Shown one piece after another: positions 2,437-12,231 of a stretch of DNA of 12,785 nucleotides. The notes beneath the pieces are model-generated. The model was not told where the DNA came from. It searched no databases and saw only the letters and a list, made by a program, of their open reading frames with translations. The stretch is from the NCBI GenBank assembly GCA_900543555.1, contig UQRL01000051.1:1-12785 (forward strand). The letters are read 5' to 3'. The position numbers were made by a program, and so were the translations under genes. The stretch's first letter is position 1. Every line of letters begins with the position of its first letter. The DNA is from an uncultured Oscillospiraceae bacterium. Lineage in GTDB: Bacteria; Bacillota; Clostridia; Oscillospirales; Acutalibacteraceae.

Positions 2437-3579
2437 TCAGCCCAGCAGGGCCTTGGCCTTTTCCATGCGCTCCACCACGGGCACCCCAAAGGGACAGCGG
2501 GTTTCGCAGCCGCCACAGGCAATGCAGTCCGCGGCCGTGGCGGAAAGGGCCTGGTAGTGGGCCCGCACCGTGGCGGGGACCTCCGGCTGCATGGCGGCCA
2601 GGTCGTAGAGCTTGTTGACCATGGCAATGTCGATGCCCGCCGGGCAGGGGGCGCAGTGACCGCAATAGGTGCACTGGCCGGAGTAGGCGTGGCGGGGTGC
2701 CTTGGCCAGCACGCTGGCGTAGTCCCGCTCCTCCTCGGTGGCGGCCTCATAGGCCACGGCGGCGTCCACATGGGCGGGAGTGTCGTAGCCCACCAGGACA
2801 CTGGCCACCGCCGGGCGGGTCAGGGCATAGTGCAGGCACTGCACCGGCGTCAAGGCCACCCCAAAGGGGGAGGTGCGGGCGTCGAACAGACGGCCGCCGG
2901 CATAGCCCTTCATCACGGTGATGCCCACGCCCCGCTGCTCGCACAGCTTGTACAGCTCCTCCCGCAGGGGGTCGATGCCGGCCAGACCCTCGCCATAGCT
3001 CTCAACAAAATAGTCGTTCAGGTCCTCGCTGGGGGGCAGCAGGTCAAAGGCGGGGTTGACGCTGAACAGCAGCATTTCGATCTCCCCGCTGCGGGCGGCC
3101 AGCTTGGCCACCTGGGGGTTGTGAGTGCTCATGCCGGTGTGACGGATCACGCCCTTTTCCCTCTGCTCCTTCACATAGGCCAAAAACTCCCCCTCCATCA
3201 CCTGGCGGAACTCTGCCTCGCTGTCCACAAAGTGGATCATCCCCAGGTCGATGTAGTCTGTTTGCAGCCGGGTGAGCAAATCCTGAAAAGCCTCTTTCAC
3301 CTTGGGCAGGTCCCGGGTACGGACATACTGCCCCTCCTGCCAGGTGGAGCCGAAATGCCCTTGGATGACCCATTTCTCCCGGTGTCCACAGATAGCGTTG
3401 CCGATCTTGGTACGCACCTCTGGATTAGACATCCAGCAGTCCAAAATATTGATGCCATAGCTTTCACAGCGCTGTATGACCGCCTTAACCTCTTCTTCCG
3501 TGTGACGTTCCAGCCACTCCGCCCCCAAGCCGATCTCGCTGACCTGCAGGCCGGTGTTTCCCAGCTCTCTGTACCGCAT
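2437..3579 (-). CDS. Aldo/keto reductase with C-terminal 2x[4Fe-4S] ferredoxin domain
   Basis: The product is 380 residues, starting at ATG 3579-3577 with AGGAGG about 7 bp upstream. Residues 1-295 form an aldo/keto reductase TIM barrel that begins MRYRELGNTGLQVSEIGLG. The C-terminus carries two ferredoxin motifs: C303-x2-C306-x2-C309-x2-C312-P and C352-x2-C355-x2-C358-x3-C362-P. This two-part architecture is typical of oxidoreductases in strict anaerobes, in which NAD(P)H and Fe-S electron transfer are probably linked; the substrate is unknown. Of the usual catalytic tetrad, D47, K69 and H116 appear to be in place. The tyrosine normally found a few residues after the Asp is not seen, because the segment reads D-C-W-M-S-N-P, as I believe is common in this subfamily. 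The gene is monocistronic, with its own promoter and a shared terminator. Confidence 0.93.
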   Translation of the reverse strand: MRYRELGNTGLQVSEIGLGAEWLERHTEEEVKAVIQRCESYGINILDCWMSNPEVRTKIGNAICGHREKWVIQGHFGSTWQEGQYVRTRDLPKVKEAFQDLLTRLQTDYIDLGMIHFVDSEAEFRQVMEGEFLAYVKEQREKGVIRHTGMSTHNPQVAKLAARSGEIEMLLFSVNPAFDLLPPSEDLNDYFVESYGEGLAGIDPLREELYKLCEQRGVGITVMKGYAGGRLFDARTSPFGVALTPVQCLHYALTRPAVASVLVGYDTPAHVDAAVAYEAATEEERDYASVLAKAPRHAYSGQCTYCGHCAPCPAGIDIAMVNKLYDLAAMQPEVPATVRAHYQALSATAADCIACGGCETRCPFGVPVVERMEKAKALLG

Positions 3580-3612
3580 GCAAAAGCCTCCTGACAAAGA
3601 ATTGATGGGTAC

Positions 3613-3624
3613 AGTATAGCACAC
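3613..3624 (-). promoter_or_regulatory. Extended -10 promoter of the aldo/keto reductase gene
   Basis: Read on the minus strand the sequence is GTGTGCTATACT: a TATACT -10 (3618-3613) preceded by TG at the extended -10 position. It lies 34 bp before the start codon. The -35 region at 17 bp spacing (TTCCCC) is poor, as is common for extended -10 promoters. The same 12-mer recurs in the nucleoside hydrolase promoter at 5864-5875. Confidence 0.65.
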
Positions 3625-3696: not shown

Positions 3697-3768
3697 GAAG
3701 GTGTAAGATTCTGTCCGGAATGTTGACCTTTAGAGTAGAAGGCTCTGCACAGTGGGAGGTGGAGGAGC

Positions 3769-4326
3769 ATGGAGGATGCACAGATTGTAAAACTCTATTG
3801 GGAACGGAACCCAGAGGCCATTGCCCGTTCCCGGGAAAAGTACGAAATCTACTGCTTTTCCCTGGCAGACCGCATTGTAACCAGCCGGGAGGACGCGGAG
3901 GAGTGCGTCAACGACACCTGGCTCCACGCCTGGAACAGCATGCCGCCCCACCGGCCCAGCGCGCTGCGGATCTTCTTGGCCAAGATCACCCGACGGGTGG
4001 CCTTGAACCGGTGGAAAGCAGCTTCCGCCCAGAAGCGGGGCGGGGGCCAGCTGCCCCTGGTGCTGGAGGAGCTCTCGGAGTGCGTCTCCGGCCAGGAGGA
4101 CGCAGAGGGCGCCGTGGAGGCCAGAGAGCTGCGTCGGCTGCTGGACCAGTTCATTCGGGAGCTGCCTGCCAGGGAGGGCAATATTTTCCTGCGGCGGTAC
4201 TTCTTCACCGAACCGGTGGGGGAGATTGCCCGGCGATGGGGCCTGACGGAAAACCATGTGTCCGTGCTGCTGAGCCGGACCCGGAAAAAGCTGAAGTTAC
4301 TGCTGGAAAAGGAGGGATACCTGTGA
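3769..4326 (+). CDS. ECF-type RNA polymerase sigma factor
   Basis: The product is 185 residues, the usual ECF length. Region sigma-2 spans about residues 22-85: the segment around DRIVTSREDAEECVNDTWLH matches core-binding region 2.1/2.2, and RIFLAKITRRVALNRW matches the -10 recognition helices. Region sigma-4 spans about 128-183, with VGEIARRWGLTENHVSVLLSR as the helix-turn-helix that reads the -35 element. Purine-rich ribosome sites (GGGAGGTGGAGG) lie 3-15 bp before ATG 3769. The stop codon overlaps the GTG start of the serpin gene, so the two are translated as a coupled pair. No classical zinc-binding anti-sigma gene is present. Which genes it transcribes cannot be told from the window. Confidence 0.93.
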   Translation: MEDAQIVKLYWERNPEAIARSREKYEIYCFSLADRIVTSREDAEECVNDTWLHAWNSMPPHRPSALRIFLAKITRRVALNRWKAASAQKRGGGQLPLVLEELSECVSGQEDAEGAVEARELRRLLDQFIRELPAREGNIFLRRYFFTEPVGEIARRWGLTENHVSVLLSRTRKKLKLLLEKEGYL

Positions 4327-5777
4327 AACCGGAAACCCTGTACGAGAATTTGAATTCTGTGGACGAACAGCTGCTGGAGCGCAGCGAGACCGCCAAGGCC
4401 CCCCGCCGCCGTCCCTGGTGGATGGGGGCCGTGGCGGCAGCCCTGGTGGCAGTGGTGGCTCTTGGGGCGGCTTTCTGGCCCAAAGGCAGCCCCCTTGGGG
4501 TGGAGGCCCATGCCATTGAGACGGCTGCTTACCCGGAGATGGCCCCCTATCCTGACGAAGCGGATTATGTGGACCAAGCCACAGGAGAGTACGACAACGA
4601 GGGGTTCAACCAAGCCCATGACGCCTGGTGGGAATCGAAACAGGCCCTGCTGCCGGAAGAAGGCTATGCCGACGGGCTGGATTCCTTTTTCCAGGAGAGC
4701 ATCCCTGTGTTCCTGGGGGGAAAGGAAGGGGAGAACGCCGCCTATTCCCCCGTGAACGTGTACATGGCCCTGGCCATGCTGGCGGAGCTGACAGACGGCG
4801 CCAGCCGCCAGCAGATTTTAGATTTGCTGGGCAGCGATTCCCTGGAGGCCCTGCGGCAACAGGCCCAGGCGGTGTGGCGGGCTCAGTATCAAAACGACGG
4901 GGCCACCACCACCATTTTAGCCAGCTCGGTGTGGCTGGACGAGGACATCTCCTACAACCAAGAAACCATGCAAACCTTGGCGGAGAGCTATTACGCTTCC
5001 TCCTATCAGGGGCAGATGGGCAGTGAGGAATACTCCCAGCTGCTTCGGGAATGGCTCAACGACCAGACCGGGGGCCTGCTGGAGGAACAGGCGGAGGGCG
5101 TAGAAATGAAACCAGAGGACGTGCTGGCCTTGGCCACCACCCTGTACTTCAAAGCCAGATGGGCCGATGAGTTCTCCCCAGAGAACACCAGCCCCCAAAC
5201 CTTCCACGCCCCCAGCGGCGACGTGGAGGTGGACTTCATGCACCAGACCCTGGAGGAAAGCTACTACCAGGGGGAGAACTTCGGCGTGGTGCGCAAAGGA
5301 CTGCAGAACAGCGGCGCCATGTGGCTCATCTTGCCTGACGAGGGAACCACCCCAGAGCAGCTGCTGAAACAGGGGGATGCACTGGAACCGCTCCTTGCGG
5401 AGTACAACTGGGAGGACTGGGAACCCCGGACGGTGCACCTTTCCCTTCCCAAGTTTGACGTGGTCAGTGAAACCGACCTGCTGGGCGGTCTGGAAGCCCT
5501 GGGCGTCACCGACGTGATGGACCCTGCCGTCTCTGATTTCTCTCCCCTCACCTCGGAGATAGAAGGCCTCTACCTGTCTTCGGCCCAGCACGCGGTGCGG
5601 GTCACCACGGACGAGGAAGGGGTGGAGGCCGCCGCCTACACGGTGTTTTCCCTTTCGGCCACCAGTGCGGGTGAAATGCCTGAGGAACTGGACTTTGTGC
5701 TGGACCGGCCCTTCCTGTTCGCCATCACCAGCGACGACGGCCTGCCCCTGTTTGTGGGCGCCGTCAACCATCCGTAA
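4323..5777 (+). CDS. Membrane-anchored serpin (serine/cysteine protease inhibitor) in the anti-sigma position
   Basis: The product is 484 residues. GTG 4323 is the start: it overlaps the sigma-factor stop (GTGA), has GGAGGG at 6-bp spacing, and the protein sense begins there. Residues 1-30 form a short basic cytoplasmic tail, 32-52 a single membrane helix with no lipobox or signal-peptidase site, and 53-115 an acidic linker. Residues 116-484 form a complete serpin domain. Signs are the helix-B-like NAAYSPVNVYMALAMLAELT, TTLYFKARW at 272-280, and the serpin signature F-V-L-D-R-P-F-L-F-A-I (458-468). The reactive-loop hinge EEGVEAAAYT (431-440) has the small residues needed for loop insertion, so an inhibitory serpin is expected. 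Counting from G433 as P15 puts P1-P1' at T447-S448. There are no cysteines. Gut Firmicutes and bifidobacterial serpins are known to trap host elastase-type proteases. The tail and coupling to a sigma gene suggest a signalling role, which is inference. Confidence 0.93.
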   Translation: MKPETLYENLNSVDEQLLERSETAKAPRRRPWWMGAVAAALVAVVALGAAFWPKGSPLGVEAHAIETAAYPEMAPYPDEADYVDQATGEYDNEGFNQAHDAWWESKQALLPEEGYADGLDSFFQESIPVFLGGKEGENAAYSPVNVYMALAMLAELTDGASRQQILDLLGSDSLEALRQQAQAVWRAQYQNDGATTTILASSVWLDEDISYNQETMQTLAESYYASSYQGQMGSEEYSQLLREWLNDQTGGLLEEQAEGVEMKPEDVLALATTLYFKARWADEFSPENTSPQTFHAPSGDVEVDFMHQTLEESYYQGENFGVVRKGLQNSGAMWLILPDEGTTPEQLLKQGDALEPLLAEYNWEDWEPRTVHLSLPKFDVVSETDLLGGLEALGVTDVMDPAVSDFSPLTSEIEGLYLSSAQHAVRVTTDEEGVEAAAYTVFSLSATSAGEMPEELDFVLDRPFLFAITSDDGLPLFVGAVNHP

Positions 5778-5798
5778 CCGCCTTTCCACCAGCCGGCG

Positions 5799-5832
5799 GG
5801 GCCGGGAGCCTGGAGGCTTCCGGCCCTTTTTT
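5799..5832 (+). terminator. Intrinsic terminator of the sigma-serpin operon
   Basis: A 12-bp stem, GGGCCGG plus GAGCC paired with GGCTT plus CCGGCCC, has a TGGA loop and is followed by six T. It lies 21 bp after the serpin stop codon. Confidence 0.93.
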
Positions 5833-11194: not shown

Positions 11195-11701
11195 TCATGT
11201 TCCGGGCAACCGCCGCTCCATCTCTTGCAGGGCCCTGCGCAGGGGCCTATACAGCACCAGCGCAAGGAAGAAATTGCCCACGGCATGTCCCACATCAAAG
11301 GTCAGGCCGCTGATGATCCAGGCGATCATCATGGAAAGCCCGCCCACAGGAAGATACACCAGAGAGCACAGGGTTCCAAAGGCCAAGCCGTACAGGCCGG
11401 ACAAAACGGCCCACTGCCAGGAATGCTTCATCCAGCGGAACAGCCAGGTAAGCCCGGCCAGCAGAGGCCAGACGTACAGGTACATCAGCCACCACAGGCC
11501 AAATCCCCCATAGAGCAGCCCTTCCAGCATAAGAAACACCGCCAAGGCCCCCAGCACCCGCCTGCGGAACACCAACGTGAACAGGATGGTCAACAGGCTG
11601 ACCAGCTCCACATTGGGCAGAGCCGCCAGCGTTTCCTTGGAAACCACCATTACTGTGCCCATCATGGCCATCAGGCACAGGTCCACCAGGCGGCTTTTCA
11701 T
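11195..11701 (-). CDS. ECF-type transporter S component (substrate-binding membrane subunit), probably corrinoid-related
   Basis: The product is 168 residues, starting at ATG 11701-11699, which shares its first base with the TGA of the lipoprotein gene (TGATG); GGTGGG lies 7 bp upstream. A TTG one codon earlier is less likely. About five to six membrane helices span almost the whole protein, with a W/Y-rich segment G-G-F-G-L-W-W-L-M-Y (65-74). A D-V-G-H-A-V-G-N-F (136-144) segment precedes the last helix, as in energy-coupling-factor S components. Such subunits bind a vitamin and dock on shared EcfA/A'/T units, none of which is encoded here. The cobalamin riboswitch upstream and the DUF4430 partner point to cobalamin or a related corrinoid as substrate. 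The family call is moderately sure; the substrate is inferred from regulation. Confidence 0.75.
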   Translation of the reverse strand: MKSRLVDLCLMAMMGTVMVVSKETLAALPNVELVSLLTILFTLVFRRRVLGALAVFLMLEGLLYGGFGLWWLMYLYVWPLLAGLTWLFRWMKHSWQWAVLSGLYGLAFGTLCSLVYLPVGGLSMMIAWIISGLTFDVGHAVGNFFLALVLYRPLRRALQEMERRLPGT

Positions 11702-12231
11702 CAATAGCCCACCGTCAGAGTCAGCTCATAGGTGTCGCCGTCGCTGAGCTCGGTGGAGTCAGCGCCGTAGTTCCACATCTCGCCGCCCTTGGTCAGGCAC
11801 CACCACTCCTGGTTGGAGTCATCGGCAGTCTCGCCATCCACAGTGGTGATAAACAGCCCATAGCTGCTCTCTTCCCCTTCCACCAGGCCCTCGGCCATCA
11901 GGGCGTCGCCCAAGGTCTCCGCCTCGGTGGAGATGGGGAACTCTTTCTCGCTGCCGTCGCCGTGGACCACCTTCACAGTGATCTCCTTTACGGCCGCCTG
12001 AGAAACGGCGCTTTCACCGGAAGCCGCGCTCTCCACAGTGGAGGACTCTGCCGCGCTGGAAAGAGCCGAAGAGCTTTCCTCCGTCTGGGAGGAGGCCGCG
12101 CTGGAAACGCCGCTCTCCTGGGAGGAAGAGGAGGCGCCCCCGCTGGAGCACCCGGCAAAGACGGACAGGACCAGGGCCAGGCTCAACAGCAGCGCGCCGA
12201 GACGGCCAAGGGTTTGCTTTGTGTGTTTCAT
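11701..12231 (-). CDS. DUF4430 domain lipoprotein, candidate surface corrinoid-binding protein
   Basis: The product is 176 residues. A signal peptide (1-27) ends in a lipobox-like F-A-G-C with C28 as the predicted lipidated residue; Phe at -3 is unusual. Residues 29-80 are a Ser/Ala/Glu-rich low-complexity linker. Residues 82-176 form the DUF4430 domain, with S-Y-G-L-F-I near 123-128, the Trp-rich E-W-W-C-L-T (142-147), and L-S-D-G-D-T-Y-E-L (162-170), the typical end of this beta-grasp-like fold. DUF4430 (PF14478) resembles the C-terminal domain of the animal cobalamin carriers intrinsic factor and transcobalamin. ATG 12231 has GAGGT at 8-bp spacing. The gene lies directly behind a cobalamin riboswitch and is coupled to the S component, so a role in capturing corrinoids outside the membrane is likely but not proven. 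Confidence 0.85.
   Translation of the reverse strand: MKHTKQTLGRLGALLLSLALVLSVFAGCSSGGASSSSQESGVSSAASSQTEESSSALSSAAESSTVESAASGESAVSQAAVKEITVKVVHGDGSEKEFPISTEAETLGDALMAEGLVEGEESSYGLFITTVDGETADDSNQEWWCLTKGGEMWNYGADSTELSDGDTYELTLTVGY

Follow-up and report, generated by a model that had tools for sequence, protein, structure and literature searches.

The window analysed here, the whole stretch of 12,785 nucleotides examined from an uncultured Oscillospiraceae bacterium (contig UQRL01000051.1), carries on its plus strand a two-gene operon in which a gene for an extracytoplasmic function (ECF) sigma factor is followed by a gene for a membrane-tethered serpin. The sigma gene (3769..4326) encodes 185 amino acids that match Pfam Sigma70_r2 and Sigma70_r4_2 and TIGR02937, all above cut-off; matches to PF04542 and PF08281 in a protein of this length fit an ECF factor, which has regions 2 and 4 only in about 200 amino acids. 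The serpin gene (4323..5777, plus strand) starts with GTG, shares four bases (GTGA) with the sigma stop codon and encodes 484 amino acids. AGGAGG within the sigma gene (4310..4315, plus strand) is its probable ribosome-binding site. An intrinsic-terminator-like hairpin found by a consensus scan, with a 13-pair stem and then a T run (5798..5827, plus strand), closes the operon, and the serpin is the operon's only outer domain.

The serpin gene product is built from four parts, all encoded on the plus strand. Residues 1-31 (4323..4415) form a cytoplasmic tail, a probable sigma-binding module on the evidence of the tail family and its co-variation with sigma factors described below. A single membrane helix follows at residues 32-52 (4416..4478; helix 33-51 in the AlphaFold model), with positive charges at its N-terminal, inner side. 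Outside the membrane lies an acidic N-terminal extension, residues 61-134 (4503..4724), which contains a YPEMAPYP motif and is modelled as an ordered block with a predicted local distance difference test score (pLDDT) of 83-96. The serpin domain, residues 135-484 (4725..5774), is identified by PF00079 and by matches to PDB entries; its hinge, EEGVEAAAYT (431-440), and reactive-centre loop occupy 5613..5696. Just outside the membrane, A62-H63-A64 (4506..4514) forms an AxA motif which, judging by motif counts in relatives, is a possible signal-peptidase (site 1) site. The protein lacks a lipobox, ruling out lipoprotein anchoring. Thus, sequence and Pfam confirm the architecture given in a preliminary description of this DNA: an ECF sigma gene overlapped by a gene for a tail, one helix, an acidic linker and a complete serpin.

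The nearest species genome found was L001, an Oscillospiraceae metagenome-assembled genome (MAG) with 56% identity over residues 1-484, and we used its family as our sample. A serpin match was present in 155 of 300 genomes of this family; loci were taken from among the matches listed for these 300 genomes, weaker matches falling outside the sample. The family loci, earlier loci and the window gave 160 serpin open reading frames (ORFs), which reduced to 155 non-duplicates, 95 with and 60 without a lipobox, as assigned, together with the membrane helix, by simple pattern and hydropathy. Taking a spacing of fewer than 260 bases between the sigma stop codon and the helix as the definition of directly behind, we find 37 of the 155 so placed after an ECF gene, every one with a tail and a membrane helix. 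None of the 95 lipoprotein serpins lies there, although with a sigma model trained on the same loci distant ECF genes could escape detection. The distance from sigma stop to helix is 70-132 bases in the 37, and the nearest lipoprotein serpin lies at 625. This split, 37/37 against 0/95, rules out chance neighbourhood. The 37 comprise 32 with the tail type of the window and five with a second type. Among the remaining 23 ORFs, which lack both a lipobox and an adjacent sigma gene, several are fusions resembling surface-layer (S-layer) proteins, contig-edge fragments, second copies or lipoproteins that escaped the pattern. Tailed homologues occur mostly in the family of L001, with others in an Acutalibacter MAG (P0040) and a strain of the Lachnospiraceae genus Hominifimenecus (P0102).

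Variants of this gene order were also seen. Tandem serpin pairs lie behind one ECF gene at L096, L122 and L147; both members are tailed at the first two, and the second serpin of L147 has a membrane helix without a recognisable tail. The second tail type (YKRANxx) is found at L085, L103, L136, L138 and L147, paired with a separate sigma clade. One metagenome serpin (P0095) begins with residues resembling the first part of this ECF sigma factor, followed at once by the membrane helix; the two genes may have been fused by a natural deletion. Serpins at L028, L078, L084, L087 and L127 are fused to repeats that by eye resemble S-layer-homology repeats, and L039 has an ORF of 1273 amino acids with two serpin matches. 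At both L084 and L039, the serpin is preceded by an ECF gene and a gene for another membrane protein.

The tail is not confined to serpins. A profile of 25 tails (alignment A1), run on 61 genomes of the same family, matched in 55 at E <=0.01, many of the weaker matches covering the membrane helix only. A best E of <=1e-6 was reached in 32 of the 61 (in G017 through the helix part only), versus 8 of 199 phylum-wide genomes. Choosing matches that span the tail, we took 30 loci and 32 further regions. In all, 116 ORFs matched the tail; 97 distinct ones were kept, and the other 19, either duplicates or matches that missed the tail itself, were set aside. The 97 proteins are 35 serpins and 62 with other outer domains, nine of the 62 coming from serpin loci and not from the tail search. 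An ECF gene lies directly upstream of 32/35 tailed serpins and 60/62 tailed non-serpins, or 92/97 in all, and of 51 of the 53 tailed non-serpins that were found by the tail search alone. The commonest sigma-tail junction is the four-base overlap seen in the window (54/92). The tailed serpins without a directly adjacent ECF gene are the second copies at L096 and L122, which sit in the same operon as the first, and an apparent orphan, L178. At L155, where only about 100 bases upstream are available, the absent sigma gene may be an edge effect. When 61 of the tailed non-serpins (L015 left out) were searched with Pfam at E <=0.01, two matched DUF4179 and six other families matched one protein each. 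Proteins such as those at L153, L154, L160, L161, L166, L179 and L189 have outer domains nearly devoid of Pfam matches, and one genome (G022) has 13 tail-profile matches at E <=0.01, some to the helix only.

We then compared distances among tails with distances among their sigma factors in 88 of the 92 adjacent pairs (32 serpin and 56 non-serpin; four with a short sigma match were dropped). The correlation was 0.44 over all 88, the highest of 2000 permutations reaching 0.17, and 0.41 in the 56 non-serpin pairs. Among the 32 serpin pairs, the sigma factor correlated with the tail at 0.57-0.64, with the membrane helix at 0.21 and with the serpin at 0.26-0.27; the partial correlation of sigma and tail given the serpin was 0.61, and that of sigma and serpin given the tail 0.01. 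The tail exceeded the serpin in every one of 1000 subsamples of 22 pairs. Restricting the comparison to well-diverged sigma factors lowered the values to 0.36 for the tail, -0.08 for the helix and 0.03 for the serpin. The sigma-serpin correlation was itself reached by 2 of 2000 permutations, as expected for neighbours. Sliding a 30-residue frame along the protein gave a peak at residues 1-31 (0.565); the other frames gave 0.13-0.34, with the top values where a frame still overlapped the tail. Within the sigma factor, correlation with the tail was strongest for region 4 (up to 0.56), against 0.19 at the N-terminus. Simple vertical co-inheritance was rejected as the whole cause, since the serpin encoded in the same ORF shows much weaker co-variation with the sigma factor. 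The preliminary description had proposed searching relatives for this gene pairing and for co-variation of tail and sigma factor; the tail is conserved, both patterns are present, and the outcome it named as refuting, a lack of conservation, did not appear.

Trees were built with FastTree and have limited support, the sigma tree containing 88 + 5 rows. On it the two tail types are separated by one change with support 100, and serpin versus non-serpin outer domains require 12 changes, at least 6 of them forced by well-supported branches. The serpin tree requires 11 changes for the first tail (at least 6 forced) and 4 for the second. On several occasions, then, serpins have been fused to such tails or separated from them. 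Gene order, with the tailed gene behind and overlapping or close to its sigma gene in relatives too, and co-variation of the cytoplasmic segment with its own sigma factor are both as expected of a membrane anti-sigma factor. Collectively, the pairing, the sharing of the module, the co-variation and the trees point to a tail that is a sigma-binding module and a serpin that is an interchangeable outer domain. On these sequence patterns, we predict with high confidence that the tail binds the sigma factor, with the contact probably at region 4.

That the tail would also inhibit its sigma factor is suggested by analogy with the class of membrane anti-sigma factors, and several published systems, described here and below from excerpts of the cited papers, bear on this. 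The zinc-binding anti-sigma (ZAS) class I motif is H-x3-C-x2-C (PMC7406223); as the preliminary description had observed, the tail cannot carry it, having no Cys or His in residues 1-31. The further claim that any contact with the sigma factor would be of a new kind went too far, as short zinc-free class II segments are known (PMC7406223, PMC8103513) and the tail is a recurrent module and not a one-off. In one such case, CnrY, two helices wrap the sigma factor CnrH and the first binds region 4 (PMC7406223, PMC8103513). The tail may be a class II segment like CnrY: it is of fitting length and co-varies most with region 4. The two differ in that no sequence match between them is detectable, although the absence of CnrY from our searches is no evidence against the likeness. 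RsiV and SigV of Bacillus subtilis likewise combine an ECF sigma factor with a membrane anti-sigma factor that has a signal-peptidase site outside the membrane and an outer domain that meets a host enzyme (PMC6066255), as we propose for the window. However, RsiV belongs to the DUF4179 group and binds lysozyme through its outer domain, whereas the window protein has a serpin and no DUF4179 match. RsgI and SigI of cellulosome-forming clostridia share the principle of one anti-sigma base with differing outer modules, among them carbohydrate-binding and glycoside hydrolase modules (PMC3413522, PMC12484212). RsgI pairs instead with SigI-like factors, and a serpin is not among the outer domains named in those excerpts (PMC3413522, PMC12484212).

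Searches with existing models gave little purchase on the tail. No RsgI domain was found in the first 66 residues of the window protein with Pfam at E <=1, where the only match was to VirB8, below cut-off. Among the Pfam and NCBIfam models none matched the window tail above cut-off, the sub-cut-off NCBIfam hints being an anti-sigma model and CU044_5270. Of the curated anti-sigma models, only NF052375 (16.0 bits) and NF038083 (23.6 bits) matched the window protein, against cut-offs of 100, and the A1 profile found no anti-sigma factor among its matches to PDB sequences at E <=10. The ECF/anti-sigma arrangement is itself known; new here are the tail family, which is undescribed, and its combination with a serpin as outer domain.

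Serpins generally respond to protease attack on the reactive loop by passing into a relaxed state with the protease trapped. The window protein contains the full-length fold (PF00079), tengpin is among its nearest solved relatives by PDB matches, and the inhibitory hinge stands in front of its reactive loop; with this hinge intact, loop cleavage would be expected to trap a protease here too. The hinge pattern is present in 142/151 tailed and 93/101 lipoprotein serpins, and in 127 of the 142 hinge-bearing tailed serpins P14 is V or C instead of the usual T. The loop at 445-458 is modelled with pLDDT <50. Counting from G433 as P15, P1-P1' is T447-S448 in the window, and canonical counting likewise puts A, S, G or T at P1 in 135/142 tailed serpins, residues that would suit elastase-like proteases. 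Two such human enzymes, neutrophil elastase and proteinase 3, are inhibited by siropins from a gut commensal (PMC8233489, section 12). Like the window protein, siropins and the other group T serpins (tengpin, the Bifidobacterium serpin and miropin) are complete serpins of inhibitory type; unlike it, they are not described with a sigma-linked tail in the excerpts we drew on. Nor did we find a printed link between a serpin and an anti-sigma or sigma factor in the titles and abstract openings of open-licence PMC papers among the matches listed, a scope that excludes subscription papers and preprints.

Between serpin and membrane lies the region that would have to carry a signal inwards. Y70 and P71 are invariant among the 57 rows of alignment A4. 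An AxA motif stands just outside the membrane in 101/143 tailed versus 4/26 lipoprotein serpins, with P0022 and P0047 moved by hand from the lipoprotein to the tailed group. A site-2 protease of family PF02163 is encoded in all 28 genomes with tailed serpins, but also in all 14 controls, so this evidence is weak. Once RsiV has bound lysozyme, signal peptidase cleaves it close to the membrane (PMC6066255), and RsiP is cut there by signal peptidase on its own signal (PMC8844934). The native state of tengpin is held by an N-terminal segment bound to the serpin body (PMC8233489, PMC12702362); by analogy, a change of state that frees the N-terminal extension of the window protein would be mechanically reasonable.

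Our best explanation of the whole, which we regard as somewhat probable, is an ECF sigma factor and membrane anti-sigma pair with a serpin as its outer domain and protease-triggered release of the sigma factor. In this model, the tail would hold the sigma factor inactive, while outside the cell the serpin would offer its cleavable loop. Attack would leave a relaxed serpin and a trapped protease, and either the change in the serpin or the protease itself could free the N-terminal extension and bare the AxA site beside the membrane. Site-1 cleavage would then permit intramembrane (site-2) cleavage and breakdown of the tail, and the released sigma factor would transcribe its own operon and renew the serpin. 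As the protease would meet the serpin and the sigma factor would renew it, we propose that the serpin is sensor and shield in one. The parts of this model differ in strength. The system is real, conserved and coherent. That the serpin occupies the place of the sensor domain in other anti-sigma factors, as the preliminary description had suggested, is supported by analogy. The protease-sensing step, in which attack on the serpin is the signal that releases the sigma factor, is plausible, and we judge it evenly balanced. The most specific version is tentative and, in our view, rather less probable: a one-shot fuse in which loop cleavage, by turning the stressed serpin into the relaxed one, would withdraw the ordered extension (residues 61-107) from the serpin body, in keeping with the coupling of the tengpin N-terminal segment to its native state, bare the AxA to signal peptidase, free the sigma factor through intramembrane proteolysis and re-arm the surface with new serpin, in a bacterial serpin receptor recruited repeatedly onto two anti-sigma tails.

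The same operon could be built if the tail is an anti-sigma factor whose signal is something other than serpin cleavage, such as an effect of envelope stress on the membrane segment, or the action of signal peptidase, and the serpin is only an induced shield. Eight loci lend this some weight (L009, L015, L024, L033, L037, L049, L058 and L072): there, an ECF gene is followed by a tailed non-serpin protein and then by a lipoprotein-like serpin, with one extra gene between the last two at L072, so that the serpin, as a later gene, may be cargo. In Bifidobacterium breve, too, serpin expression is tied to protease exposure, but through a separate two-component system that acts as sensor, the serpin being the output (PMC8012564). 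A pure output would not, however, need to be fused to the tail behind an ECF gene, as it is in 37/155 serpin ORFs, or to be the sole outer domain of a two-gene operon, as in the window; we consider the shield-only account unlikely, though it deserves to be taken seriously. Alternatively, tail and helix may be an unusual signal peptide or anchor that is cut constitutively at the AxA to secrete a plainly co-expressed serpin. The position of the AxA right after the helix in 101/143 is that of an ordinary signal-peptidase site, but a signal peptide would hardly co-vary with the sigma factor above every other 30-residue stretch tried, recur in 62 proteins that are not serpins (60 of which directly follow an ECF gene) and change type only once on the sigma tree, and we regard this account as improbable. 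The direction of regulation is not readable from sequence, and all the evidence here is of partnership, which would also fit a tail that recruits the sigma factor to the membrane or stabilises it; since the membrane-bound sigma partners RsiV, RsiP, RsgI and CnrY are inhibitors in the excerpts cited, a positive partner seems very improbable.

Other observations weigh directly against the protease-triggered model. In the eight loci just described, operons of this kind encode the serpin as a protein separate from the anti-sigma protein, so serpin sensing is not required for the link between serpins and these sigma factors. For the tailed serpin at L178, about 2.5 kb of upstream sequence gave no ECF match; possibly this serpin responds to, or titrates, another sigma factor. 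The tail is not clearly amphipathic, a shuffle test giving values <0.1 in 29/97 tails and 0.24 for the window. In a single-chain AlphaFold model of the sigma factor and tail of L145, a relative, the tail helix block has pLDDT 61-67, the predicted template modelling score (pTM) is 0.44 and docking is not resolved; the tail had no alignment depth in this model because alignment A6 contained only sigma rows beside the query, mixed alignments A3 and A5 having been dropped for placing tail rows on the sigma N-terminus. The excess of AxA motifs was not significant in a tree-corrected test that left out P0022 and P0088 (7 supported contrasts, of which 2-5 agree and <=1 disagrees; median p 0.25). Moreover, AxA occurs within residues 50-85 in 25/35 tailed serpins but only 23/62 tailed non-serpins.

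The last step of the model, self-activation, rests on a block upstream of the sigma gene, and here the evidence cuts both ways. In the window, an ECF-type promoter-like element can be read by eye as TGTAAGATT (3702-3710), 13 bases and TGAC (3724-3727), spanning 3702..3727 on the plus strand. We searched with 16 simple ECF patterns and then four hand-made ones (A-D), using mononucleotide shuffles as the control. Pattern D matched 10/32 serpin systems including the window, with a shuffle mean of 0.1, and 0/85 lipoprotein serpins. Pattern A, the loosest, matched 18/32 serpin systems versus 5.1 in shuffles, 13/52 others versus 8.3 and 14/85 lipoprotein serpins versus 14.2. Most relatives have CG[TA]C at the place of the window's TGAC. 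The recurrence of this promoter-like block in serpin systems suggests self-activation. Against it, the 16 simple patterns were near chance in most cases, pattern D matched only 2/52 non-serpin systems, and patterns A-D were drawn by eye after the sequences had been viewed, D being widened to admit the window's TGAC.

Bacterial serpins have been puzzling, and the placing of 37/155 serpin ORFs, nearly all from one bacterial family, in probable sigma switches offers a specific role for them that can be tested. Should the serpin be the sensor, protease attack would be read by these bacteria through an irreversible trap, and the proteases may include host elastases. Whatever the serpin does, the tail defines a family of partners for ECF factors; a genome often has several of them, their outer domains are almost wholly unannotated, and together they form a catalogue of unknown sensors.

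Viral and plasmid origins for the window were rejected. A scan of IMG/VR for close relatives gave none, and the one match in a plasmid collection, from Vescimonas fastidiosa, spanned 119 bases of the sigma gene. Upstream of the operon and divergent from it, the minus strand encodes an aldo/keto reductase with a C-terminal 4Fe-4S domain (2437-3624). Further along the window, a putative lipoprotein with a DUF4430 domain is encoded on the minus strand at 11701-12231, adjoined by a small, probably membrane-bound protein at 11195-11704.

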